Assembly: GCA_013420905.1 (NCBI GenBank)
Contig: JAAXNY010000006.1
Location: forward strand, 2,294,001 to 2,358,000
Source: Collybia mongolica
Lineage: Eukaryota; Basidiomycota; Agaricomycetes; Agaricales; Clitocybaceae
Direction of reading: 5' to 3'
Length of the DNA: 64,000 bases
Of this stretch, positions 2,364-64,000 are shown piece after piece. The first letter of the stretch is position 1, and every line of letters starts with the position of its first letter. The position numbers were made by a program, and so were the translations under genes. The notes beneath the pieces were generated by a model. The model saw nothing but the letters and a program-made list of their open reading frames with translations, did not search any database and was not told the origin of the DNA.

Positions 2364-4318
2364 CTACTCCTCCTCGCTGTCAGGCACGGACGAAGAGGAA
2401 CTTGACGACGAAGAACCGTCATCAACCTCTGCTTCTTCCTCCAAGGGTGGCCAAGGGAGGTTCTGGAAATCCGCGTAGAAGAGGAGAGTGCTCTCCGTGG
2501 CTGGCGTAGTCAGCAAGAGGTGTTGAAGGCCCTCCAGGCCTTCCTCCTCGTACAACTTACCAATGGTGCCAACTATGCGCGCCAACAAGGAGTTGCGCAT
2601 TTCAAGCGCGCGGTTAGCGGCCTGAATGACCTCCGCGGCAAGAGAGTCCGCGTCGCCTAGCTGAGCATAGGCTTCAGCAACCGCTAGTAGAATAAGTAAA
2701 ATCATTAGTAAACGAAAAGACAGAAAGAAAATGGCTTACTAGAAATGCCCGCACCAAGCATCGGCCCCAGATCCTCACGAAGCCTAGCGCGCTTCTGGGG
2801 AGTGAGACTGAAGCTGCACTTCCCCTTCTTGGCGGTGGCGCATTCAACGCACGGTTTGCCCCAACCGTTGGAGGAGCACTCGATGTCGCCGCGGGTGGCG
2901 CACATTGTGCAAGGATAGCCCACCTAGTAAGAATGATCAGTAACAAAAAATAAAAGAGTAATGAACATACGGTAGAGCGCCAAGGCGCAAGGTCAGCCAG
3001 CAGGGAGGTAATAGGGGACTGTAGCGGCGTCAGCTCCCGGTTGGGAACCAGCGCGTGCTTGCGGCGTGTCGCCTGAACCCTATCCCTAGAACGAGTGGTC
3101 TTACGTGACCGGCGAGGAGAAGGGGCCGCGGGAGGTAACAACTCCGCGAACCCCTCTTGAGCCAACTGGCGCGCGATCTCTTCATCAAAGAGCCGGAGCT
3201 CGGGGACCTCAACCTTTACCGGCGGCTGCCCAGAGGACTAAGGAGATAAAAATGAGTAAAAGTAAATGAGTTCAAAAGAGAAAAGAGACATACGGGACCT
3301 GCTGCCGAGGGACGCAGCGCGGCATCACTGCCAGCCCCCTGGGCGCGCGACATGTCGGACTAGAATTTTGAAAGCAAGTCAGGAATAATGTGAAACCCGT
3401 GAAGTAAAGGATGGTATATACCTGGGGAACCGCGCGGCCTTTGCCCTTGGACCCTTCGTTACGCTTCCGCTTGAGGGGCTATTGAAATAAGTCAACCACA
3501 GAAGAAAAGTAATAAAAAGCAGTATTAGACGAACCGCTGGTACCAAGACCGGGGAGTGCGCCGGCAAGGGCGCGGCGGACCAACTGTCCCGGTACTGATG
3601 GTAACGGCGCGGTGCGCCAACCATGCGAGGAGGGACGAGGAAAGTATCCTGAAAGATACTTTCACCGTTGTCGCGCTCGAAGCGCGACCCCACCTGGTCC
3701 AGGACTTGCTCCACAGTGGGAGCCTGGCCCTAAAGTAAAAGGTAGTCAGCTTGACAAGGGCAGGCAGAGTAAAGAAGTAAACAAGTCACTTACCAGAAGA
3801 ATGGAATTGTGGCCCAGGTCAGTCGATATGACCGTGCGCCAGGAAGACCACGAAGCCTCGCGCGCGTCGACAGGGATGCGCATCACTTGAAGGTGAAGTG
3901 TGCACAGGAGGAGAATAGCCGGATATGGCAGCGAAAAACGCGCGCCACGGACCACGCCAGTGATGGCATCCTGAGACCAGTAAATAAGTAAAAAGTTTTA
4001 ATAAGTAAAGGATGGGCGTACGATAAGCATGGAGCAGTGATCGACGAAGTCAATCAACTCGTCGAGGTCAAGGGGGCCCTGATGGTCCATACGGGGCGCG
4101 AGCTCCTCGGCCATAATAATCCACCCTTGCTCCATGGCGACGAAGACATCGCCCTCGGCATCTTCAAGGAGGTCGGAAAACGAGGGGACCGGCTGGTCCA
4201 CATAGACCATAGTGGGGGAACGGCCCTCAGTCGGTAAAATCGCGGCGGAGAGCGAGAGGGACAGCGCGGAAGGCGAGCGCAGGGCACGAGCCATGGCAGA
4301 GGAGGAAGTAGAAGACAT
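2364..4318 (-). CDS. Unknown 520-aa protein with Cys-cluster, eight exons
   Basis: No named function is recognised. Eight minus-strand exons (4318-4022, 3970-3794, 3729-3535, 3478-3422, 3359-3294, 3237-2971, 2923-2740, 2683-2364) join through 47-64 nt GT-AG introns into 1563 nt, a complete 521-codon frame. The start at 4318 begins MSSTSSSAMARAL. Residues about 1-260 form a mostly ordered region without recognised motifs. A basic linker follows (PLKRKRNEGSKGKG and RRSRKTTRSRDRV). The Cys-cluster lies at about residues 357-390, with spacing C-X2-C-X7-C-X8-C-X2-C-X7-C (CTMCATRGDIEC, then CVECATAKKGKC). The tail is a Ser run flanked by Glu and Asp. The spacing resembles, but does not match, the fungal Zn2Cys6 binuclear cluster, so DNA or RNA binding is an inference. 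Six of the seven introns are in phase 0. A transposon-associated origin is possible, because the flanks are repeat-rich. Confidence 0.62.
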
Positions 4319-20450: not shown

Positions 20451-20538
20451 AGCAATGACAATACCTAATGTGCTGGGAAGTTGCTAAAAGAAAGAGAGAG
20501 CTACTGTCCCCATGTGTCCTCTAGGTTAGTATGGTTTA

Positions 20539-22216
20539 TGAGTCCTTATGTTTACATAAGTAACTCATTCATCATCCTGGGTTTGTGGGGAAAATTCAGT
20601 GTACCCAACAAGATCCAGTGTTGTTTTTCCCATGGTTAGTAAGTTCGAAGTGTTCCGAGATTTCATTAGAACATGATCAGTAAACATTTTGAAGTACATC
20701 AGTAAAACTTTGTAGTTGTGGAAACATTTTTCTAACTGTGGGAATCAAAACTAGCCAACATGCGGATTTCAAGCAAAAAAGGCAACTGCTAACATACAAA
20801 ACATTGCATATCTCCACAATGACAAGGCCTATGGATGCAATTTAAATTGCTACTACTAGATATGGTGAGGGGCTACCCAATGTAGATATTTATATGTATT
20901 TGTATTTGTTTGTACACCTTCAAACATCATGATCAAAAACAGCTCTCTCACTACAAGCATGTTACAAATGAATCTCAAGTTTGTATACGAGTTTGCCACA
21001 CAGCTTGCCAAACAAACAATACCATCAAAGTTCCCACACTATAAATCATTGCATATCTCAACAACAACAAGGCCTATGGATGTAATTTAAATTGCTAGTG
21101 TTAGATATAGTGAAGTAGTACCTCATGTATATGTTTGTAAGTGCTTGTATTTGTTTTTATTTTTCTAAACCTCATCAAGAACAAATTTCTTGCTACATAT
21201 TGTAAATGAATACTGTCTGTATATCATTTCACCACACATCTGGCCAAACAAACAATAATATTAAAGAAATTTCCTACAATATAGATGATACTTGTCTCAG
21301 CAAATACAAAGCTAATGGACATGCTACTACTAGACATTGTAAAGGATTACATTATATGTATGTTTATAAGTATTTGTAGTGGTTTGTACCCTTCCGAATC
21401 ACATTATTAACAACAACTTTTTGACTACATATTACAAATGAATATCATCTGTATATTGCTTTGCCAACATCTGGCCAAACAAACAATATTAATGAAATTC
21501 CCACAATGTAGATAATGCATATCTCAGCAAATACAAGGCTAACAGACACAATTGAAATTGCTACTGCTCCTAGACCTATGGAGGAGGTACACCAGGAAAT
21601 GTATATTTATATTTGTTTGTACCTTTCCAATATAATCTCTTGTTATATCTATTTTAATATCACATTTATATATCACATGGCCAAAAGCATAGCCAAACAA
21701 GTCAATGTGGATGCTCCTAGAATCTATAATACTCAATATCTTGACAATGGCTAGCTATATGAGCATGGTTGAACATAGTATGTGATAAAACAACAAAAAA
21801 AACTTAACAGGCATATGTACATTTGTTTGAACTTTGTCTTTGATGATGATATTTCTATTTTTAGCATATCTGATAAGTTCTTGATTAGGATGCAAGGCTA
21901 GAAATAAATTGTTAAATGTTGAAAAGTTGATATACATTTCAATACTGTGGGAACTTGTTTCTATTATAGGCATTTGGATCAATATTACTTCCTTAGTGAT
22001 TTAACTATTTGGTATATTCTTTATTTATTAATTGTTTTAAAATTTAAACAATTAGTTTAAGTTTCACAATTGGGTAGTCCAATCTATAAATAGGTACATT
22101 GGATAAATACTGTAGGTGTACCAGAAGTCTATATCAGCCTACTAGAGCTGTGCAAATAGTACAGGAGTAAAATATCAGTAAGAAGTAAACTAATATTTGT
22201 AAAATGAATAAGAACA
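20539..22216 (+). repeat. Large repeat family, copy C (partial, plus orientation)
   Basis: This copy begins at TGAGTCCTTATGTTTACATA, preceded by TA, and matches the first part of copy B (48892-51700). It contains four to five diverged tandem units of roughly 200-240 bp, each carrying a phrase like CTGGCCAAACAAACAAT, then CCCACAATATAGATGAT, then GCATATCTCAGCAA. It lacks the 194-bp hairpin segment present in A' and B (B 49150-49343). Similarity ends at 22216. Compared with B it has TG or CA at many CG sites. The small ORFs inside are shadows of the repeat. Confidence 0.85.
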
Positions 22217-24907: not shown

Positions 24908-27900
24908 CAAGTCCTTATGTTTTTTTTTTGATTAACTTTTCCTCATATTTCTAGAACCAGGTTGTTGCAATAGAACTAGCTATCCAGAATCTCTTCAACT
25001 TTATATTACTTTTTTTTGTTGATAAGTTTGGTTCTGGAACACTTGTCAGGCATTATCCTAGAATTAGATTGTAGGGTACAGGGAGTAGCTTGACATCATG
25101 GAAGGCCTGATGGATACACAACATGAAGATGTAATATGACCACACATTTGAGCTTGCCAAATACTTGTTGCACTTCTGTAAGGGGTCATGTTACCAAGAG
25201 GCTCAGACAGGGAGCAGTATACACAGTATGAATAACCATGCAGGGAAGGGATGAGCATAGAGCACTAGAGGCTTGACTATGAGTAGAGAATGCAGCCCAA
25301 GTCTATTGCAAAGGTGCCCTTCCATGGAGAGGAAGGGGCACCTTATATACAGTACATTGTACCTATGTCTCAAATAACAACAGAATCTGATATCAGTAAC
25401 TCTACTAATGCAACAATACATCTGTGATATGTTAGTCCAGAGTAAACTACTATCTGTCAAGGGGTTAAAGCAGTGTGTGTCAGAATAATAGGTATAACAG
25501 TGAGGCTATGCAAGCTGTGCAATAGTGATTCTGATGGCTAGGTGTGGACAAACAAGTGATCCCCTTACAACTTCACCCATATCCATGGTGTATGATATAA
25601 GCAACTGCATATTAATTGCCAATAGAAGTTGGTGTTTATAGATCCTATACAAATATCCACCAATAAAAGGTAACAATATATATCTAGGCATTTTCCTTAA
25701 AAACAAGTCAGCTGGTAAAGTGGGGACTCAGACTCTCAGAGATGGACTATGTGAAAAAATTAACAAACTTGAAAATGTAGATCCATATTTGTATATTCCA
25801 AATGTACAACCAACTCAGTAGCTTCTCTGGAGACTTTACACTGAGCCACATGAGCCACACAGACCACACAGACAAATGCAGGTGTCTGCAGACTGACTCA
25901 GACCCTGTTTGGCAGGGAGCCCTGCTTAATTGACAGTCTGCATCTGAGCCAAGTCAAAGCTAAGTCCATAAATCAATGCTGTTACTTGGATGCTCAGACC
26001 CAGTTTGGAACAACTCCTCATGAAGTCCATGCAGACTGTCCAGATTGCTTACTTAATCATAGTTACCATTGCTTATTTGATGCACAAAAATGCAATATTT
26101 TGGAGAGTCAAATACAAGACCTCAAGGTTACATGTCATATGCATAAAGCATGCAGATTAACCATTTGGTAAGTCCAAGGTGCTTGTTTTTATAATGACCC
26201 CTGCTGCCTACTCTTGGCCATTACTGGCAATGGCTGAATATTGTTGATAGGTACTACATCACCTGTCAGCCTTGTTGTCAACCTCCACCACTACATTCCC
26301 AGCTGCCCCACCCATCACCTCCCTGCCATATGATTGTGCATAATACTGCCAAGTACAATGCCAGGTCCCACTGCCATGGATACCACCACCCTCTCTCATA
26401 CCCACCCCTCTCAGTGAAAATAACAACTGCAAAATCACAACAATAAGAGCTGCAGCAAGAACTACAGAGGCACCTGCCACATTACCAGTGACTGCCTGCC
26501 CACATCTGCTAGTGAACAGCTAGCATGGTGGACATGGATGGTGCAGTGGTGTATTCCATATGGTAGAACCATCACCTGGTGGCTGGGTGTGCACCCCTGG
26601 ATGTGCTGTCTAGACCAAGTAGTGCCAATCACCCCTGTGCCCAAACCAGATGTGTGTAAGGTGAGTGCATATGTGCCTCACATCTAGTTGCTCAGATATA
26701 CCTTGTTCTATTGTATATGCACCTATATGCTGCTGTATACCTTGAGACTACCTTGGTGTAATTCTATCTACCTTGTGATATGTTCTTATTCCTTTTACAA
26801 ATATTAGTTTACTTCTTACTAATACTTTACCCCTGTACTATTTGCACAGCTCTAGTAGGCTGATATAGACTTCTGGTACACCCACAGTATTTATCCAATG
26901 TACCTATTTATAGATTGGACTACCCAATTGTGAAACTTAAACTAATTGTTTAAATTTTAAGACAATTAATAAACAAAGAATATACCAAATAGTTAAATCA
27001 CTAAGGAAGTAATATTGATCCAAATGCCTATAATAGAAACAAGTTCCCACAGTATTGAAATGTATATCAACTTTTTAACATTTAACAATTTATTTCTAGC
27101 CTTGCATCCTAATCAAGAACTTATCAGATATGCTAAAAATAGAAATATCATCATCAAAGACAAAGTTCAAACAAATGTACATATGCCTGTTAAGTGTTTT
27201 TTGTTGTATTATCACATACTATATTTAACCATGCTCATATAGCTAGCCATTGTCAAGATATTGAGCATTATAGATTCCAGGAGCATCCACATTGACTTGT
27301 TTGGCTATGCTTATGGCCAAGTCATGTATAAATGTGATATTGAAATAGATATAACAAGAGATTATAATCAAATTTGGAAAGGTACAAACAAATATAAATA
27401 TACATTTCCTGGTGTACCTCCTCCATAGGTCTAGGAGTAGTAGCAATTTCAATTGTGTCTGTTAGCCTTGTATTTTCTGAAATATGCATCATCTATATTG
27501 TGGGAACTTCACTAATATTGTTTGTTTGGCCAGACATTGGCAAAGTAATATACAGATGATATTCATTTGTAATATGTAGTAAAAAGGTTGTTGTTGATAA
27601 TGAGATTTGGAAGGGTACAAACAACTACAAACACATATAAATAAATACATCATGTATTCCTTTACAATGTCTAGTAGTAGCATGTCCATCAGCTTTGTAT
27701 TTGCTGAGATAAGTATCATCTATATTGTGGGAAATTTCTTTAGTATTATTGTTTGTTTGGCCAGATGTGTGGTGAAATGATATACAGACAGTATTCATTT
27801 ACAATATGTAGCAAGAAATTTGTTCTTGATGAGGTTTAGAAAAATAAAAACAAATACAAGCACTTACAAACATATACATGAGGTACTACTTCACTATATC

Positions 27901-40929: not shown

Positions 40930-43874
40930 ATGTCACGCTCCACTGGACCACAAGAACTCTGTCAATACTGTGGTGCTTCATATTCACGAAGGGGACTTGG
41001 GAACCATAAAAAGGCCTGCAAAAAGCGAAGGGAATTAGAGGCTGAGGTGCAGGGAGATCAAGATGCTCAGACAGATCTGCAGGCAGTGGAGGAGAATGAG
41101 ATTTGTATGTGGCCTTAGTGGTCAATTTGACTAATATTAATCATATATAAACCCCTCATAATCTCCAGTACATACTCAAGATGAAAACAATAATCTGTTG
41201 GTACAACTTGAAAATCAAATGTGTATGTAACAATTTGTGTGCTTTTATGTATTTGGAACCTGATGGAGTCATGAACTAGCACATGTGGGGGAAGATTTCT
41301 ATATCATGGGTCATAACCTCAATATTGTAGATCCTGATCCTGATCAACCAGGTGATTAATATTTTAATTTCAGGCAAAATTCCAAATTTACTACAGCCTT
41401 GCCAGAGTTATCCAATGAAACACCTCAAGAAGATGATATACAAGTCAAATATCACCCCCACAGTGGCCAGGCCCCACAGGTGTACCACTTTGATGAATAT
41501 GGTAAAGATAATATTGCCTTTAGCAATCTGGCACCATTTGACCAGGAACCATGGAGGCCATTTCATTCCCATCTTGAATTTGAGATTGCCAAACTAGCTT
41601 TAGAGGCAGCCTTGAATAAGGAACAAACCAATAAACTTATTTCTTTAGTTCACCGAGCTTCAGGTGGCAAAGAGACATTTACTTTGTCTAGTCACTCAGA
41701 ACTTAGGAATACTTGGGAGGCTGCAGCATTATCTTTGACAAATGTGAGTATTATTTTACCTGTTATGCAGGTATTGTTTGAAACACAGTTTTTAGTTTGA
41801 AAAATTAGATGTTATAGTGCCATTCAAGGATGAAGACCATACATTTGAAGTTTGGCATCGTTCAATATTTCAGTGGACACTTGACCATCTTCAGGACCCT
41901 TGTCTTGTACAACATTTTGTCTGGAATGCTCAAAAGTTATACAAGTATAAGAAATCCAGTGAGAAATGGGAGCAATTTATTCATGAACCATATACAGCAA
42001 ATAGGTGGTGGAAAATTCAGGTACGGCCCCAATATTCTGATTTTGGACTTGATCTTGATTAATATATTGATAGTCAAAACTTCCCCAGGATGCAATGCCT
42101 GTCTTTTATATTTTATATGCAGATAAAACCAAGCTTTCCTCATTTGGAACACAAAAAGGATATCCAGTAATTGCTCGTATTGCAAAACTTCCCATAAATA
42201 TTCGGAATGGAACTGGAATTGGTGGTGGTAGAGTAGTAGGGTGGTTACCAATTGTGGGTGTATTATTGAATGGTCTATAACTCATAGTAAATGATTCTAA
42301 CTATATTTAGGTTGCAGAAGATGCTGGTGAGAAAAGCAAGAAGAAGTATGTGGACTTCAAAAAAGTTGTTTGGCACAAGGCATTCCAGTTGTTGCTGGAA
42401 ACTATTGCAGAGTATGCATCACATGGCTATCATTTTAAATGTGCTGATGGTATAATACGTCAGCTATTTTTTATGATTCTCATTCTATCAGCTGATTATG
42501 AAGAACAGTAAGTTTTTTTTACAATATTATTCTTTTAAACAATAATTATAACCTATTTACAGATGTATCATGGCTCTCACTTGTGGTACAAAGAGTGATT
42601 ATCCCTGCCCTATTTGCTTGGTTGAACAAAAGGACCTTTCAAAACCCTATATTTGCTATGATGTCCGAACTCAGGAGCTGATGAAAACAGCTTATGAAAA
42701 TGCAGTTAGTGCATCTACTCAAGCTGAGGGTGAGAGAATTGTGAAAGCAGTTGGGTTACGTAAAGTCTATGTTAGTAAATTTATATGCTTCTCAAACTTG
42801 GTATATTGACTTGATATATAGAATGCATTTTGGGATGTTCCCCACTCAGATCCATATGCAACCCTTTCATGGGATTGTTTACATGCATACCATTTGGGGC
42901 TATTTTCTGTTCATCTCTGGGGTGAAGTTTTGGATTTACTTAAAATCATGGGAAAAAGTGCATCAAAACAAGTTGATACACAGTATGCTGAATTTTTTTC
43001 TGGATTTCTACTTGGTATTGACAGCTTATTTTAAAGGTTTGATTTACTACCATGCTGGTGTAACCTCAATCACTTTTCAGCAGTTACAACAATTTCATTT
43101 TCAGATGGCTCAAAGTATGAGGACATTTCAAAGGTTTTTAATTTAATACTTTGTTGTATATATAAATGCTTATATAAATACTGTAGATGGCTCTTTTTGC
43201 TCTACACAATGTACTTACCAACCCACAAGGATATCTTCTACTCCAATGTTTACAAAGTTATCTGGAACTGGATATGTATACCTCACTTGAGGTTCATACA
43301 GAGCAAACCATCAAAGATGGAAGAGAGGAATTGAAACATTTTTCAGAACTCATTAATGTGTGTATTATTCTATCTAATTCTCCTTATTAGCTTATATAGC
43401 TATATATTTAGGAATATGGAATCAAATACTCTGAGAAATCCTGGAACTTTCCAAAGAACCACACACATGGCCATGTTTTCAATGATATTGAAGAACAGGG
43501 GGCTACTCGAAACTTCAATACCAAGTTCAATGAAAAAATGCATGGGCCATTCAAAACATCCTACAAGCTCAGAACAAACTTTAAGAAAGTTGAGGGACAG
43601 GTCTGAATATACTGTCTTCTCTGTTTTGGCTTATCTTGCTGATATTATAAGGTAGATTCTCTGGGCAGAACACTGTCTCTTGGTTGCTGCCTATATTTGT
43701 TCTCAGCTAAATGATCTTGATTCCTACAATAATGAGGATGAAACCTCCCCAACCAATGACTCCTCAGAAACATCTATCATACATGTGACTCTTGGTGCTT
43801 CAAAGAAATTATGCTCATTTGAGTGTCTGGAAGCTCAAATTTCTCATGATTCAGCCTTTACTGATTTTTGAAAG
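40930..43874 (+). pseudogene. Plavaka-type transposase gene, 5' part (split by insertion)
   Basis: Plavaka is an EnSpm/CACTA-related DDE transposase family abundant in Agaricomycetes. The N-terminal zinc finger is CQYCGASYSRRGLGNHKKAC (40960-41020). After short introns come FDQEPWRPFHSHLEFEIAKL (about 41540), CLVQHFVWNAQKLYKYK (41905), LYADKTKLSSFGTQKGYPV and NGTGIGGGRVVGWLPIV (42115-42255), then ILILSADYEEQ, CPICLVEQKDLSKPY (42605), a block near 42830-43010, LELDMYTSLEVHTEQTI (43260) and, near 43420-43600, WNFPKNHTHGHVFNDIEEQG and NEKMHGPFKTSYKLRTNFKK. Introns of about 50-90 nt fit between blocks. No stop seems to disrupt the blocks themselves, but the gene is cut at 43875 by another transposon; its C-terminal exon resumes at 47812. 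Confidence 0.8.
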
Positions 43875-46800
43875 TGGGGGTGGGCAATCCCTGTTACTTT
43901 TTGGAAGCGTGACGTCACTGCCTGTGACCAAAAACATCACAAATCTTGGTACACTCTGTTTCCTCACCTGTTTCCCCCACTTCTGGGCCACTATAGCCTT
44001 TATTCTTTTCCCAAAATAAATGTAATGTATATATGCTATGAATACAGTTAAATAAATCTCACATAACCCTCAATTTTCTGAGAAATCTTCCCAAGCGCTC
44101 TCCCCTCCTTCTACTGGATCTGTTTCATTGATAGCCATGTCTTCAGCCTCCTTTCTTTCACTGTAGGGCACCCAGTTCTTGCTGGTGAACAGGTCTACAG
44201 CCTTCTCAAGTGCTTTTTTCATACTATCAGCTTTTGTGTTGCTTGGTAGGGTTTTGATATTTGTAGCCCCAGCAGCTTTGAAAGCCTTAAACTGAGCTTG
44301 TAATGCCTTTCCTTTTAGCTTTCCAACCTGTTCTCTATCCAAAATAAGCTCAGTCCTTGATATTCCTTCATCCCTATCCTTTTTTCTTTCCTCTCTTTTT
44401 TGAGCAGCAGTCTCTTTCTGGGCTATCTTTTCTTCATTATGTTGAATGATTTCCAATTGCCTCTTTTGATCTTCACCCTTCATATTTCTTGCTTCTGTGT
44501 GAAGGAATTTATAGTCCTCAGGTGTATTGAGCTTGGCTTTCATAAAAGCATCTGTGTTGTTGTGGTGGTACATGACCTGGGCATTATACTGAAGGACTGT
44601 GAGTTGTGGTTGCTGTTGCATAAGCACCCTGAATGATCCCAGAGCTCCTTCATTGACATCATTAGTAGCTGGCATCCATGCCAACTCCTTTTCACCCATA
44701 GTTGCCTCATCAATCAAACCTCCTGGGGTGAATTCAGATGTAAAATGTTTCCATGTTATTAAAGCACCTTTGTGAAATTGGATGAGCAGTGGCTGAAGAT
44801 ATGGCATGGTGGATTTCATTCTCTGTATCTTTTCAAAAACAGCTGGATTTTCCCACATTTCCCCATTCAAGGTTCCCATTTCATAGGATGCATTGTCACC
44901 AATAAGAAAGTTGGGATCATTGATAATCCTTTTTATGTGGCTCTGTACACTCTCATGTAGTGGGCCCAACATCATCATATTCTCTGCAGAGCAAACTGCC
45001 TTCATATATGGGTGGCTAGTTGATTGACCATATAATGCCATAACAGCCAACTCAGTCAATGTAGCTTGACAATGGAGTGCTTCCCACATATTTTTCTCCA
45101 TATGGCTAAATTTTCTGTTGGTTTTACATTGGCGAGAGAATTCAAGGTATTCAAGAAATTTGTCAAGATATAAAAGCAGTATTCCAGCAGCTAAACAGTA
45201 GGTTCCAAATCAGTTGTTTGATGTATCAGGAAATGTAAAATTTGTGCCAACATGTGCTCTCCACCAAAAGCGGAACAGGTTCTGGTGTCCTTTCTTGTCA
45301 TCTTTATGGTTTAAAATTGCACCAGTAACTTGTACAGCCTTTATGGCACCTGAAACAGTTTTTTCAAATGCTCTTTCCTGGGCTGGAGTCATAATACCAT
45401 CTCCAGGAATTATATCTTTAAGTGTTGCTGCATTATCTCTATTGGCAAGTTTCACTGGCCCTTCAATACCATTTTCAGCCCACCAAGATGACATTGCTGC
45501 ATAGCCTCCTCGTATAGAATTCAAATCCTTGTGGCAACCACAACCAGCCCAGATGAAAAGAGTTAGAGCATGCTGCTCATTGTCAGACAACATTTCATAA
45601 GCTTTCTTTGCCAAGTTGTTTCATAAAGGCTTCTATCATCTTTGCTCTTCTTTGGGCCTGTTCTTCCTCAGTAAGAGTATCCCATTTTTTCTTCCCACCA
45701 GCTTCAGAAATCATGATCTTGTTGGCTGCCATGAAATCTAAAAGTAGTTCTTGATTGGAACTATCCAGCACAAGACCTTCACCTAGTGTCTGGAAGACTG
45801 CATCTTTTTTCATATCCTCCAGAATCTCAGCATCCTTTTTTTCTTTGGCACAGTGATCAGAAAGCAAGCCAAGTAGTTTGATCAGGATTTCCACTAGACG
45901 TAGTATATTTCCACCACGCTTTCCAAATGGGGATCGGTTAAATATGTCTATAGCAGTTCCAAGCAATTTTTTCCAATCTTTGATTGACTCTTCACTAGAG
46001 TTGTCAAGGGAAGACATGATACCAAAAAAGCATGTTCTTTTCTGTTTGTCTTGGTTATCAGAGCTATAGTCCTCAGCAGTCAGATTCACATGGCGAGAAT
46101 TATAGTTAATATTCTGGTGTCCTGTTCCATCTGCACTGAAGGTCATGGCTATATGTTCTATTTAGAAAATCTAAGTGTTTGTGAGGAATCAGTTCAACTC
46201 ACCATCTGTTTCCATCATCTCATATCCTAGCTGTATCTGTGCTGCAATATATCCCTCAACAAGAATCCATGAGACTGTTTGCCGGCTGATACCTCCAGTT
46301 GTTTTTATACCAGCACAGTGCAGAACAGCATGAATGACTTCACCAACACTGTCCTTTGAGCAGCCAGCTTTAACAAGAAGTCGGATCAAGTTTCGAGCCT
46401 GTTCAGTATATACACCTTTGTGCAGTAGACTGAAAGTTGATTTTTCCTTCAAAGATTTCTTGTTTGATTCAACTTGTTTTTTGAGTTTCTGAAGTTTTGA
46501 ACAACATTTCTTGAATCCTTGTTGCACCATAGTGATTTTGTTCTGGTATCGTTGTTGTTCAGATGCTGAACGTTCCAACAAAGAAGACAGTTTCCGCTGC
46601 AACTTGATATTTTCTTTCTCAAGTTTCATAAAAGATTCTACAGCAGAGAGTGCATTTGATATGAGAACTGCCTTTTCCTGTGTGCTCTGGGCAGTTGATT
46701 CATACTGTGTATTCAACTGCTGCTGAAGTGAGGCTTTCTTAACCTCAGTATGCTTTTGTGTTTGTCTCTCAGTACATAGAGCTTTATACCACTTATCAGC

Positions 46801-47811
46801 CTTTTTTTCAGCACCAAGGAGCTTCTGAGAGGTCTCAGCCAGTTTCTTATTGGTTGTTGCAAGAGCAGTAGTAAGATGCCTCAGTTTCTCTGATTCTTCA
46901 GCCAGCTCTGTCTCTAGCTTTGCATTATACTTTTCAGCCTGTTGGAGGGCTTCCACTACCAGATGATGCTCATGATACTCATGAGCCTTTAATCTTGCAT
47001 GAGTAGCCCTCTCTAGCATTGCCTGAGCTTGCTTCTTGGCTTTTGGCATATTCTGATCAATATGTAACTATAGCTAATGATGATGTCACTGTCACTAGAT
47101 ACTATAGCCTATATAACTCATACTTACCTGAGGATAGGCTCACCAGGAAGGTAGGGCAAGCAGAGTAGAAGGTGGGGGTTTAAGAGTGGATGAGTTTGTA
47201 CCATGAGGCATTGGTGAGGCATCCTAAGGCTGTAATCACACTCTGTGACACCATGTGAACCAGTGAAACCAGAGGTAAAACTTGTATCCTAATCTCCTCC
47301 TTCAATTCTCAACCAATTGCTTTGGTCCAAGGGGCAAAATAGCACGAATTTTTGAGCTCTACAAACCCATTAAGAGATATGTTAAATATTCCCCCTCCTT
47401 CACCCAGGACTTCCTATTTTAACACTAAAAATAGGCTTTCTTACATGAACAAGATAAAAATTTTAAATCCCTTCTAATGAGTTTGTAGAGCTCAAAAAAT
47501 AGTGCCATTTTACCCCTTGGATCAAAGCAATTGGATGAGAATTGAAGGAGGAGATTGAGATACAAGTTTTGCCCTATATGAATGGTGCTATTTGGCAGGC
47601 AAGTGATTGGTTCTCATAGTTCCACACTCCTCCAGGGAAAATCTATTACATCAGGATGTTAAGACAGTACTATAAGCTATATTTACACTGAAATTTCTAT
47701 CATCTGGAAGTGGTGCCACTCACAAACACAATGTATCAAGGTTTGGTGTCATAGTGTGATTATCTTGTGTCTGTGATGCGCATCACACTTACCGGGAATT
47801 GCCCACCCCCA
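43875..47811 (-). mobile_element. Nested DNA transposon with hAT-like ends, inserted in the Plavaka gene
   Basis: The left end reads TGGGGGTGGGCAATCCC (43875) and the right end GGGAATTGCCCACCCCCA (to 47811), an inverted pair. The host sequence TTGAAAG(T) occurs on both sides (43868-43875 and 47812-47819). This gives a 7-bp target duplication if the terminal T/A belongs to the element, or 8 bp if not. Interior to each end is a palindrome: GTGACGTCAC at 43909-43918 and GTGATGCGCATCAC at 47773-47786. The insertion splits the Plavaka coding sequence, whose C-terminal exons resume at once on the right. The element carries one minus-strand gene, 47049-44070, and about 0.76 kb of non-coding sequence at its 5' side, including two loosely inverted stretches around 47330-47580. 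Confidence 0.85.
44070..47049 (-). pseudogene. Roughly 975-aa putative DDE transposase of unnamed family, two lesions
   Basis: Exon one is 47049-46203; after a 54-nt intron (46149-46202), the rest is 46148-44070. Residues 1-230 form a long coiled coil (start MPKAKKQAQAM). Then come VYTEQARNLIRLLVKAGCS and ISRQTVSWILVEGYIAAQIQ. Conserved-looking acidic motifs follow: TFSADGTGHQNINYNSRHVN (about residue 285), FIWAGCGCHKDLNSIRGGY (about 485) and WMPATNDVNEGALGSF (about 780). The C-terminus is a basic coiled coil (QKREERKKDRDEG). Two breaks are seen: one extra A near 45600 shifts the frame in the GKE(A)YEML region, and a TGA at 45210 replaces Arg in SNN-FGTY. I recall similar proteins as unnamed hypotheticals in mushroom genomes. 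The D/D/E reading and the CxCH-like link to hAT are inference. It is not KDZ, Plavaka or Tnp2 by motif. Confidence 0.7.
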
Positions 47812-48395
47812 TTGAAAGTGCCTTGCATCTTATTTTACTTGGTTTTTGAAAAAGACAATCAAGATAAATCCAAGTGATACTATGAGTACTCTAGTTTCTG
47901 CTTTCCAATCTATAAGCTAAAACTCTATTCAAGATCATTGAATGCCAATTTCTCAAGGTTCCATATGAGTCAAAGGTAACATGGAAAACAACAACAGACT
48001 ATCTGCGGTGTAATCCAAAGTTTCACAATCATCCAAGATATGACCATGTCATCATACAAACCCTTCACAGAGATGGCAGGCCTGATTACTTCTTTGCCCA
48101 ATTATGTTATGTTTTCAAATGCACAATTGAGGAAGAGGAATATTCTATGGCACTCATTCATCCATATGATGCACTCACTGGCACCATCAATCAATGGCGG
48201 GACAGGGACCTTGGCTTCTGGAAAGTGCAGGAAAAACCACAGCTATCATCAGAATTCATATCTGTGAACTCTATCATCCGTGGTCTTCCTGTAGCACCAG
48301 ATTTTGGAAATGAAGGCCAACATCTCCTAATGGATTATGTTGACTCAGATATATGGCTAAGGCTCAAGGAAATGAAGAAGATGAGGAGAGAATAA
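47812..48395 (+). pseudogene. Plavaka transposase gene, C-terminal part
   Basis: This continues the gene broken at 43875. Starting at the right-hand target duplication, the frame soon reads LKVPYESKVTWKTTTDYLRC (47960-48015), NPKFHNHPRYDHVIIQTLHR, YFFAQLCYVFKCTIEEEEYS, EFISVNSIIRGLPVAPDFG and LLMDYVDSDIWLRLKEMKK, ending with TAA at 48393-48395. These are the characteristic closing blocks of the family. Together with the 5' part, this shows that the Plavaka gene was largely whole when the nested element landed. Confidence 0.8.
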
Positions 48396-48889
48396 TATAC
48401 AGTCAATATGTATGGACTCAGAATTAACATTGATATTGCATTGCCAGTACTAAAAGTGTTGGGTGTGTGTACACATACAAATCCATCAGGGAAACTACAG
48501 GGGGCCCAAGAACAAAGGGCCTCAAACCTTGCGTTTGCAGCAAATGAGAGGAGCAGCCCCTGAATGTGATGTTTGGGGAGCTTGATTCGAGGTAGGGGTG
48601 TCCAATGAGGGGAGAGCACCCCAAACGCAATGTTCAGGGCCATAGTGTATGGCAGAGGCAGTGGGTGAGAGGAGAGTACCTTAAATGCCATGGCCCTGAA
48701 GTTCAGGGCCTTAGTTCATGGTGGGGGTGGCAGAGGAGAGGTGAGGGCCCCAAACGTGATGTTCAGGGCCTTTGTTTGTGGTGGGTCTGATGAGGCCAGA
48801 GAACCCTGGGAGCAATGTTCAGGGCTGTGGATTGTGGCGAAGGCTGCGGGCAAGAGGAGAGGCCCCAAACGAGAAGTTTGAGGCTTGGT
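48396..48889. repeat. GC-rich degenerate minisatellite, left part
   Basis: From about 48470 the sequence repeats a unit of about 60 bp with phrases GTTCAGGGCC, TTTGTGGTGGG and GAGGGCCCCAAACG, with variable gaps. The same type of array resumes at 53570 on the other side of repeat copy B, so copy B sits inside it. No protein is supported. Confidence 0.65.
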
Positions 48890-49232
48890 TACGAGTCCTT
48901 ATGTTTACATAAGTAACTTGTTCATCATCCTGGGTTTGCGGGGAAAATTCAGCGTACCCAACAAGATCCAGTGTTGTTTTTCCCACGGTTAGTAATTTTG
49001 AAGTGTTCCGAGAATTCATTAGAACATGATCAGTAAACATTTTGAAGTACATCAGTAAGACTTTGTAGTCGTGGAAATATATTTCTAACTGTGGGAATCA
49101 ATATTAGCCGACGCGCGGATTTCGAGCAAAAAAGGCAACTGCTAACATAAGCTGCATTCAATACCATAATTTCGAGTTAACTGGTCTTATGTTGGGATAT
49201 CTCAAGAATTAATTAATAACTGTCCACTGCAT

Positions 49233-49300
49233 AATCATGCTTACGTTTGTCAACTACGCTGTTAGCTCTAACAGCGTAGTTGACAAACGTAAGCACGATT
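49233..49300. repeat. 33-bp-arm hairpin in copy B
   Basis: Arms 49233-49265 and 49268-49300 pair with one mismatch (AATCATGC against GCACGATT) and a 2-nt loop. It is the counterpart of 28251-28318 in copy A'. The mismatch positions differ between the copies and each is a C/T or G/A change. Confidence 0.9.
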
Positions 49301-50519
49301 ACAAGAGGCTTCTTCCGCTTTGGGCCAAACTTTTCCCACACTACAAAACATTGAATATCTCAACAATGACAAGACCTATTGATGCAATTTAAATTGCTAT
49401 CACTAGATATGGTGAAGGGCTACCCAATTGGTATATTTGTATGTATTTGTATTTGTTTGTTCACCTTCAAACATCATGATCAAAAGCAGCTCTCTCACTA
49501 CAAGCATGTTACAAATGAATCTCAAGTTTGTATATGACTTTGCCACAGCTAGCCAAACAAACAATACCATCAAAGTTCCCACAATATAAATCATTGCATA
49601 TCTCAACAACAAGGCCTATGGATATAATTTAAATTGCTAGTGTTAGATATGGTGAAGTAGTACCTCATGTATATGTTTGTAAGTGTTTGTATTTGTTTTT
49701 ATTTTTCTAAACCTCATCAACAACAATTTTCTTGCTACATATTACAAATGAATACTGTCTGTATATCACTTCATCACATCTGGCCAAACAAACAATAATA
49801 TCAAAGAAATTCCCACAATATAGATGATACTTATCTCAGCAAATACAAAGCTGATGGACATGCTACTACTAGACATTGTAAAGGAATACATGATGTATTT
49901 ATTTATATGTGTTTGTAGTTGTTTGTACCCTTCCAAATCTCATTATCAACAACAACCTTTTTACTACATATTACAAATGAATATCATCTGTATATTACTT
50001 TGCCAACATCTGGCCAAACAAACAATATTAATGAAATTCCCACAATATAGATGATGCATATCTCAGCAAATACAAGGCTAACAGAAACAATTGAAATTGC
50101 TACTACTCCTAGACCTATGGAGGAGGTACACCAGGAAATGTATATTTATATTTGTTTGTACCTTTCCAAATTTGATTATAATCTCTTGTTATATCTATTT
50201 TAATATCACATTTATACATGACTTGGCCATAAGCATAGCCAAACAAGTCAATGTGGATGCTCCTGGAATCTATAATGCTCAATATCTTGACAATGGCTAG
50301 CTATATAAGTATGGTTAAATATAGTATGTGATAATACAACAAAAAACACTTAACAGACATATGTACATTTGTTTGAACTTTGTCTTTGATGATGATATTT
50401 CTATTTTTAGCATATCTGATAAGTTTTTGATTAACCCAGGATGCAAGGCTAGAAATAAGATGTTAAATGTTGAATGGTTGGTATACATTTCAATACTATG
50501 GGAACTTGTTTCTATTATT

Positions 50520-51441
50520 ACAAGTTCTTTATCAACCCAGGTTTCAGGCAAAAAATTGATTGATTGATTGATTGATTCATTACGAGTTCTTTATCAACCC
50601 AGTTTTTGGGCAAAAAGTTGATTGATTGATTCATTCATTGATTCATATTTCAACACCGCGGGAAAATATTTCCATAATGGGATTTTTCTTCTCTTATAGC
50701 TTTTTACAGCATTTCTCCACAAATACAAAGTGTTGTGACATAATTTGCATGTATTTGGGATGCTTACATAATGCCTTTGATGATGCCATCAAAATAATGC
50801 ATATCTAATATTTCAGAGTGTTGTGTTTCAAAATTTATTTTGTGTTTTTCTCCATAACCAGTAAAGCTATTAACTTTGTTTTTATATGTTTGGAATGTAC
50901 AAACATGGCTCTACAATTTCCTTGTTGAGCATATTTTTCCCACAGTCCATTTTGAGTGAAATATTAGAAATGTCCAGATTCAGCTAGTTTTGAAGGTCTG
51001 TGTGTTATGTCAGGGGTGAACAAACATCTTATAACAACAATGACCCTTACCAAACATGACCCTTGTGGGAAATTACACTAAACATTGGAATAATCAACAA
51101 CTACTACTATATTTACCTGAAATACAAAGAGGATTGATTTCTCTATTTATTGGCACATGTCACATGATCTATTCCACCATATAAGTATACCAAATACATG
51201 ACAACAATCTGAATGCTTATTAATGTCCATGATCCTGAGAAAAGTTAGTTCTGATGGTTTTTGTGTTTTCTCCATAACCAGGCAAGCTATGGCATTGGAT
51301 TTTGTGCACAGGTATTGCTTGTTTACTTGGTAACATTTTCCCATGGTCACATGACCTCTATAAACTATCATCTACATTGTTTCTACTCATTTACAACTTC
51401 CTGAATGTGGAATACAGTGTGTTGGCCCACTCCACCCAAGT
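50520..51441. repeat. Copy-B-specific 0.92-kb insertion
   Basis: Copies A' and C read straight from TTTCTATTAT to AGGCATTTGG, whereas copy B has 922 bp between them. The insert begins with a near-duplicate of about 62 bp (AGTTCTTTATCAACCCAG, then GGCAAAAA, then GATT repeats) at 50522-50583 and 50584-50645. Later it holds AT-rich sequence without a gene. No clear terminal inverted repeat or target duplication was found. Confidence 0.7.
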
Positions 51442-53566
51442 AGGCATTTGGATCAATATTACTTCCTTAGTGATTTAACTATTTGGTATATTCTTTGTTT
51501 ATTAATTGTCTTAAAATTTAAACAATTAGTTTAAGTTTCACAATTGGGTAGTCCAATCTATAAATAGGTACATTGGATAAATACTGTGGGTGTACCAGAA
51601 GTCTATATCAGCCTACTAGAGCTGTGCAAATAGTACAGGGGTAAAGTATTAGTAAGAAGTAAACTAATATTTGTAAAAGGAATAAGAACATATCACAAGG
51701 TAGATAGAATTACACCAAGGTAGTCTCAAGGTATACAGCAGCATATAGGTGCATATACAATAGAACAAGGTATATCTGAGCAACTAGATGTGAGGCACAT
51801 ATGCACTCACCTTACACACATCTGGTTTGGGCACAGGGGTGATTGGCACTACTTGGTCTAGACAGCACATCCAGGGGTGCACACCCAGCCACCAGGTGAT
51901 GGTTCTACCATATGGAATACACCACTGCACCATCCATGTCCACCATGCTAGCTGTTCACTAGCAGATGTGGGCAGGCAGTCACTGGTAATGTGGCAGGTG
52001 CCTCTGTAGTTCTTGCTGCAGCTCTTATTGTTGTGATTTTGCAGTTGTTATTTTCACTGAGAGGGGTGGGTATGAGAGAGGGTGGTGGTATCCATGGCAG
52101 TGGGACCTGGCATTGTACTTGGCAGTATTATGCACAATCATATGGCAGGGAGGTGATGGGTGGGGCAGCTGGGAATGTAGTGGTGGAGGTTGACAACAAG
52201 GCTGACAGGTGATGTAGTACCTATCAACAATATTCAGCCATTGCCAGTAATGGCCAAGAGTAGGCAGCAGGGGTCATTATAAAAACAAGCACCTTGGACT
52301 TACCAAATGGTTAATCTGCATGCTTTATGCATATGACATGTAACCTTGAGGTCTTGTATTTGACTCTCCAAAATATTGCATTTTTGTGCATCAAATAAGC
52401 AATGGTAACTATGATTAAGTAAGCAATCTGGACAGTCTGCATGGACTTCATGAGGAGTTGTTCCAAACTGGGTCTGAGCATCCAAGTAACAGCATTGATT
52501 TATGGACTTAGCTTTGACTTGGCTCAGATGCAGACTGTCAATTAAGCAGGGCTCCCTGCCAAACAGGGTCTGAGTCAGTCTGCAGACACCTGCATTTGTC
52601 TGTGTGGTCTGTGTGGCTCATGTGGCTCAGTGTAAAGTCTCCAGAGAAGCTACTGAGTTGGTTGTACATTTGGAATATACAAATATGGATCTACATTTTC
52701 AAGTTTGTTAATTTTTTCACATAGTCCATCTCTGAGAGTCTGAGTCCCCACTTTACCAGCTGACTTGTTTTTAAGGAAAATGCCTAGATATATATTGTTA
52801 CCTTTTATTGGTGGATATTTGTATAGGATCTATAAACACCAACTTCTATTGGCAATTAATATGCAGTTGCTTATATCATACACCATGGATATGGGTGAAG
52901 TTGTAAGGGGATCACTTGTTTGTCCACACCTAGCCATCAGAATCACTATTGCACAGCTTGCATAGCCTCACTGTTATACCTATTATTCTGACACACACTG
53001 CTTTAACCCCTTGACAGATAGTAGTTTACTCTGGACTAACATATCACAGATGTATTGTTGCATTAGTAGAGTTACTGATATCAGATTCTGTTGTTATTTG
53101 AGACATAGGTACAATGTACTGTATATAAGGTGCCCCTTCCTCTCCATGGAAGGGCACCTTTGCAATAGACTTGGGCTGCATTCTCTACTCATAGTCAAGC
53201 CTCTAGTGCTCTATGCTCATCCCTTCCCTGCATGGTTATTCATACTGTGTATACTGCTCCCTGTCTGAGCCTCTTGGTAACATGACCCCTTACAGAAGTG
53301 CAACAAGTATTTGGCAAGCTCAAATGTGTGGTCATATTACATCTTCATGTTGTGTATCCATCAGGCCTTCCATGATGTCAAGCTACTCCCTGTACCCTAC
53401 AATCTAATTCTAGGACAATGCCTGACAAGTGTTCCAGAACCAAACTTATCAACAAAAAAAAGTAATATAAAGTTGAAGAGATTCTGGATAGCTAGTTCTA
53501 TTGCAACAACCTGGTTCTAGAAATATAAAGAAAAGTTAATCAAAAAAAAAAACATAAGGACTCGTA

Positions 53567-63345: not shown

Positions 63346-64000
63346 TGGGGGTGGGCAATGCTTAGTAATTTTGCATACTGATGCAAATAGTCACTGGTAA
63401 TAAACTTAATTGGACCATAAATAGACTAACAAATTCACTGGAGAGAATGGTTTTGCATTTTCCAGCTTTGACGATCACTTTAAACACTCAATTTAAAGAC
63501 AACTAACTCAGAATTTTACTCCCAACAAAATGTTAAGCACAGATTTTTTTTGTAGAGAAGTCATGCCAAGCAGGGCTGTTCTGAGATATTGCTGCAACGG
63601 CCAGAAATTCTGGATTTAACAAATTGTAGTCTTAATGTATAGGAACAAGATTGGCCAATGTCTCAAGACCTAAAAATGAGCCTCTGAGGATATAAAGTTA
63701 AAAGACTATTTGAAAGGGTCTACATTGTTTTTGACTTTAAAAGATAGTGGTTCAATAAAATGTATATCTGTATTCAAAAACATATCCTCCTAGTGTATAT
63801 GGAAAAGTTTCATTCATGGTATGAGAGGCAGCAGTAAGTATCTGCAAAACATATTCCACATCCACCCCTGTGTGCCACAGTGCATGTGCACAATCATCAT
63901 GGCAGTCACATCTAAACCAGCAAATCAGCAGCTCCTGCCATGCCAATGCTTTCCAACTGCCTGAACAGTGGAAATCCTTAATAAATATAAAGCATGTACT
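63346..64000 (+). mobile_element. Left end of a second element related to the 43.9-47.8 kb transposon (cut by window edge)
   Basis: TGGGGGTGGGCAATG at 63346-63360 repeats the terminal 14 bases of the nested transposon. At the same distance inside (63371-63386) lies an inverted pair, TTGCAT-ACTG-ATGCAA, like the palindromes inside both ends of that element. The sequence after it differs, so this is a related rather than identical element, or a non-autonomous derivative. A minus-strand ORF at 63946-63752 (64 codons) is of unknown meaning. The other end lies outside the window. Confidence 0.55.

Follow-up and report, generated by a model that had tools for sequence, protein, structure and literature searches.

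A decayed DNA transposon nested in a Plavaka element of Collybia mongolica and its family with a predicted Hermes-like transposase

A 64,000-nucleotide stretch of the Collybia mongolica genome (contig JAAXNY010000006.1, positions 2,294,001 to 2,358,000, referred to as the window) harbors a 3,937-bp DNA transposon within a Plavaka element. The transposon ends in terminal inverted repeats (TIRs), is bounded by a short target-site duplication, and carries a two-exon gene on the reverse strand. The conserved residues and predicted fold of the gene product support its assignment as a DDE-type transposase of a family without a Pfam name. The features of the locus are listed by window position, with residues numbered as in protein P0123 and counts taken from alignment A1, which is introduced below.

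43875-47811, strand not assigned: whole transposon, 3,937 bp
43868-43874, + strand: left target-site duplication TTGAAAG, with the empty site seen at paralogous targets
47812-47818, + strand: right target-site duplication TTGAAAG
43875-43888, + strand: left TIR, TGGGGGTGGGCAAT
47798-47811, - strand: right TIR, TGGGGGTGGGCAAT
47274-47573: internal inverted repeat toward the right end of the element, with imperfect 117-nt arms, 85% complementary
46203-47049, - strand: transposase exon 1, coiled coil and helices preceding the catalytic core (layout from the P0123 model, splice site inferred)
46149-46202, - strand: intron, 54 bp, inferred from GT..AG and the frame
44070-46148, - strand: transposase exon 2, catalytic core and C terminus, broken in the window copy
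46117-46137, - strand: SADGTGH, first catalytic D (D309, 42/42)
45832-45861, - strand: SDHCAKEKKD, second catalytic D (D400, 44/44)
45595-45620, - strand: frameshift stretch
45519-45545, - strand: GCGCHKDLN, CxxH motif (C505 and H508, 43/43 each)
45210-45212, - strand: in-frame TGA
44646-44669, - strand: ATNDVNEG, catalytic E (E806, 44/44)
41360-43867, + strand: host Plavaka element left of the insertion, approximate extent (PF18759)
47819-48395, + strand: host Plavaka element right of the insertion, approximate extent (continuous with the left flank, open frame to 48395)

The inverted ends and bounding duplication are present as described in an initial annotation of this DNA, and the TIRs of the window element are perfect over 14 bp. 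When the two flanks are fused at a single TTGAAAG, seven other places in the 46-Mb genome match over 500 of 500 bases with 97-98% identity. These paralogous places are empty sites, and the 3,937-bp block therefore inserted as a unit. In these seven copies the first 250 bases of the right host flank run on from the left flank. The assignment of the host to Plavaka holds: of seven exon pieces scanned to the left of the insertion, four match PF18759, with E values of 2.9e-8 (the sole one over the curated cut-off), 1.3e-5, 0.008, and 0.011. The further claim that the insertion lies exactly within coding sequence is unproven, as one flank reading frame hits a TGA at the target itself. The duplication had been given as TTGAAAG with a possible eighth base, T; among the 14 copies whose 7-bp duplication is exact, just six repeat this base, and a length of 8 bp was consequently rejected.

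Instead of the single gene of roughly 975 residues first proposed, the window copy carries two exons, the second of which is interrupted by the frameshift stretch and the in-frame TGA. It is a dead, decayed copy. The spliced frame of a sister copy, L005, is open over 965 residues, with the D of its TND motif replaced by N. Pfam scans of the window's own pieces gave weak matches under the cut-off alone, such as ING, KwaB, and DUF7693. By eye, Arg is the residue lost in many amino-acid differences among copies L001-L007, with Gln, Trp, Cys, His, or a stop in its place, a pattern that methylated repeats decaying at CpG would be expected to show.

At least 87 pieces of the genome match the element. 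Among the matches listed, five are full-length copies, including the window copy, to which the other four are 98-99% identical; truncated copies also occur. In short copies of about 1.8 kb, element bases 1-404 and 2450-3937 remain, so that nearly all of exon 2 with the catalytic core (element bases 196-2274) is missing. An inverted self-match corresponding to the internal repeat is seen again in many copies. The exact 14-bp word TGGGGGTGGGCAAT occurs 78 times in the genome (36 + 42), versus once for the reversed control. Target-site duplications were scored at 17 end pairs, 16 with the TGGGGGTGGGCAAT TIR (two of these mismatched; one or both ends of L025 and L027 deviate from the TIR by a mismatch) and one with a variant TIR. 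One-ended loci, including L044, L045, and L049, and further candidate pairs were left out, as were L010 and L013, which are two halves of one element with TTATCAT on both sides. The duplication is a perfect 7 bp at 14 pairs, has one mismatch at L043 and an extra base beside it at L027, and is missing at L007. The termini thus repeat in further copies, mostly with 7-bp duplications.

A second subfamily has the TIR TGGGGAGGGGCAAT, a word with 88 occurrences versus none in the control; the L043 duplication reads CATTTAG versus CGTTTAG. The protein of this subfamily, as translated from the closely related copy L045, shares 39% identity with that of L005 (760 columns) and 40% with P0123. Convergent TGGGGAGGGGCAAT neighbors less than about 2.4 kb apart form 19 pairs, of which 17 span 681-736 bp; one of the 19 is L050, and the other 18 are all similar to it. 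Perfect 7-bp duplications flank 15 of these pairs, whereas L051 and L059 have one mismatch, L066 has an extra base, and L055 has none; L064 and L065 appear to be one duplicated locus. In the left copies of the duplications, T occupies position 2 in 16/17 and 17/19 cases (33/36 together), and A occupies position 6 in 16/17 and 15/19 (31/36 together). The target preference of the family, as read from these sites, is nTnnnAn. A third family shares the same 14-bp TIR and is represented by L046 (1,657 bp) and L047 (844 bp), both with perfect 7-bp duplications; their interiors gave no blastn match. The left part of L046 occupies window positions 63346-64000, from which the element continues to contig position 2359002 (G000:C6:2359002), and its duplication is CTACTTA.

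Three protein searches returned 282, 199, and 561 matches at E 1e-3 or better, with 120 listed for each; the latter two scored only about 8,000 candidates sharing most words. The fungal matches listed include proteins of Phlegmacium, Coprinopsis, Coprinellus, Amanita, Laccaria, Pholiota, Hypholoma, Galerina, Gymnopilus, Plicaturopsis, and Amylostereum. This bears out the view in the initial annotation that close relatives are unnamed hypothetical proteins of mushrooms, and homologues are also found in a sponge. The label “glutamic acid-rich protein” is attached to two relatives, P0185 and P0212, from Laccaria bicolor and Coprinellus micaceus. Alignment A1 comprises 45 proteins from the first two match lists, and D309, D400, C505, H508, and E806 are invariant in it among all rows that have a residue there. 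Two members of the triad initially suggested, the D of SADGTGH and the E of ATNDVNEG, are retained. GCGCHKDLN was rejected as the site of a catalytic D, since it is a CxxH motif after the fifth strand, and the invariant acid D400 of SDHCAKEKKD, directly after the fourth strand, is the second D. The CxxH lies between the second D and the E in 43/43 A1 proteins and in 35/35 proteins of a second alignment, A2, which consists of sponge-type relatives.

Uncharacterized proteins of the sponge Dysidea avara are homologous over 723 profile columns. They and their unnamed relatives share the catalytic set and the predicted fold with the mushroom family but differ in having an extra N-terminal region and, in many A2 members, a C-terminal Spindlin-like Tudor domain (about residues 933-1003 of P0232). 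On this homology, the family occurs in Agaricomycetes and at least one sponge. The 45 A1 members match 12 Pfam families at E 0.03, two of them recurrent coiled coils and ten found in one member each, and none is a transposase family (a looser list gave the best 25 of 51 matches). The listed matches of a PDB sequence search with A1 are confined to the N-terminal coiled coil, and a scan of IMG/VR found no relative. The proposal that the nested insertion identifies these hypothetical proteins as transposases and supplies their termini is consistent with the conserved D, D, and E, the predicted fold, and the repetition of the termini in copies.

Hermes, a hAT transposase with the catalytic triad D180, D248, and E572, is the best structural match of both predicted models, helical insertion domain included; the fold is thus predicted to be Hermes-like with an all-helical insertion domain. 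Neither RAG1 nor Transib appears in the 50 rows displayed by VIA-align, an absence that excludes nothing. The order D, D, CxxH, E is also that of Hermes, although a CxxH between the second D and E is common to this family, hAT, and other superfamilies. The target preference nTnnnAn resembles the nTnnnnAn described for Hermes (PMC10368747; PMC2803484), with the spacing one position shorter. Unlike canonical hAT elements, the family has a duplication of 7 rather than 8 bp, a coiled coil and helices rather than a BED finger, no detected dimer-domain sequence, and about 105 residues between its second D and the CxxH. The resemblance to hAT noted in the initial annotation therefore extends to target preference, predicted fold, and CxxH, but not to an 8-bp duplication or to sequence similarity. 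The absence of the C-terminal hAT dimerization block was also noted there, and none was detected: PF05699 is not among the 12 Pfam families of the A1 members, and none of the 123 genome places listed for it lies inside a full-length copy. When A1 and A2 were compared by hhalign with a profile built on five hAT pieces of this genome, no link emerged (probability 0.4% and 0.2%, respectively), whereas the same profile finds Hermes at E 3e-15. A three-sequence KDZ profile also gave no link, in a weak test. The hAT and KDZ profiles are small and their negatives therefore soft, although the hAT one has its positive control. The profile comparison that the initial annotation had called for thus yields no sequence link to either group, and the predicted models are nonetheless Hermes-like.

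The biology may be as proposed here and the family already named in Repbase, Dfam, or a non-open paper; this is a real possibility, if not the favored one. Relatives occur in well-studied genomes such as Laccaria and Coprinellus, and Repbase, Dfam, and subscription papers lie outside the scope of a search of open-literature titles and abstracts. That search found no fitting description of the family, and Pfam has no model of its core.

It is rather unlikely that the family is a very diverged branch inside hAT, comparable to the 7-bp hAT7 of rust fungi. Consistent with such a placement, both predicted models match Hermes best, nTnnnAn mirrors nTnnnnAn, the CxxH is present, and the wider duplication range published for hAT, 5-8 bp, includes 7 bp (PMC12730594). 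The hAT7 elements are fungal and have 7-bp duplications, but their place in hAT is based on transposase similarity and phylogeny (Kojima 2025, PMC12730594), and no such similarity was found for the mushroom family. The low hhalign probabilities from a profile that readily reaches Hermes and the lack of PF05699 argue against this placement. So does the N-terminal half of A1, in which conserved Cys and His form no BED-like set, although some hAT members may themselves lack a BED finger.

Membership in the KDZ (Kyakuja), Dada, or P superfamily is improbable. The 7-bp length fits Kyakuja, which also occurs in Agaricomycetes, but Kyakuja elements are described with CA..TG ends without TIRs (PMC12730594), in contrast to the 14-bp TIRs of the window element. 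The KDZ domain PF18758 is unmatched by the 45 A1 members at E 0.03, and none of its 55 genome places lies in a full-length copy. Dada elements have duplications of 6-7 bp, a C/DxxH, and a distribution in fungi and animals, but are reported with CCCC and CCHC zinc fingers and a spacing between the second D and E that is much shorter than in A1 (PMC3706591). Many Dada families target small RNA genes (PMC3706591); the target of the window copy, the one considered here, is a Plavaka element. That the gene is cargo of another transposase owning the TGGGGGTGGGCAAT TIRs is scarcely credible: the third family has the identical TIR around an unrelated interior, but two subfamilies with 39% identical proteins each have their own TIR variant and 7-bp duplications, the conserved residues make up a DDE set and the predicted fold is that of a transposase, and short copies without the catalytic core fit trans-mobilization by this transposase.

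A1 and A2 have no hAT-profile link, and Kyakuja, Dada, and hAT7 differ in ends, fingers, spacing, or sequence; the family therefore appears to work like hAT and yet, by sequence as tested here, is not a member. The window element is very probably a copy, now decayed, of a cut-and-paste DNA transposon that was active recently and used a Hermes-type enzyme, from a lineage outside hAT as sampled. Confidence in its identity as a DDE cut-and-paste transposon encoding a Hermes-like enzyme is high. Whether the family deserves its own superfamily is about evenly balanced. A fuller proposal is more tentative, its chances slightly short of even: an undescribed superfamily, sister to hAT in fold, that mushrooms share with early animals, at least with sponges. 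Its fungal members would have 14-bp TIRs and 7-bp nTnnnAn duplications, and its animal members would include some bearing a Tudor domain.

In the mechanism proposed for the family, an intact transposase, about 965 residues long, would recognize the 14-bp TIRs, probably through its N-terminal half with the coiled coil and helices, and would assemble as a dimer or multimer. Excision of the element would be carried out by a Hermes-type (hAT) active site, RNase-H-like and composed of D, D, and E, presumably with the double-strand excision chemistry of hAT. Joining to an nTnnnAn target cut with a 7-bp stagger would then produce the 7-bp duplication, and short copies may be mobilized in trans.

Elsewhere in the window, positions 24920-27030 and 51441-53551 are inverted arms, each 2,111 nt long and with a reported complementarity of 100%. 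The arms belong to a larger repeat set, also present at 20536-22216 and 48889-50518, and are a recent duplication or a mobile element.

Mushroom proteins labelled hypothetical or “glutamic acid-rich”, together with uncharacterized sponge proteins, become recognizable as transposases, and with the termini and the target rule the elements and their short derivatives can be annotated. With its predicted Hermes fold, 7-bp stagger, and lack of a BED finger, the family lends itself to testing what determines the stagger and how the ends are located. Through the Tudor fusions, chromatin-guided DNA transposition becomes accessible to testing; under the fuller superfamily proposal, the Spindlin-type Tudor domain acquired by animal members may steer integration to methylated histones.
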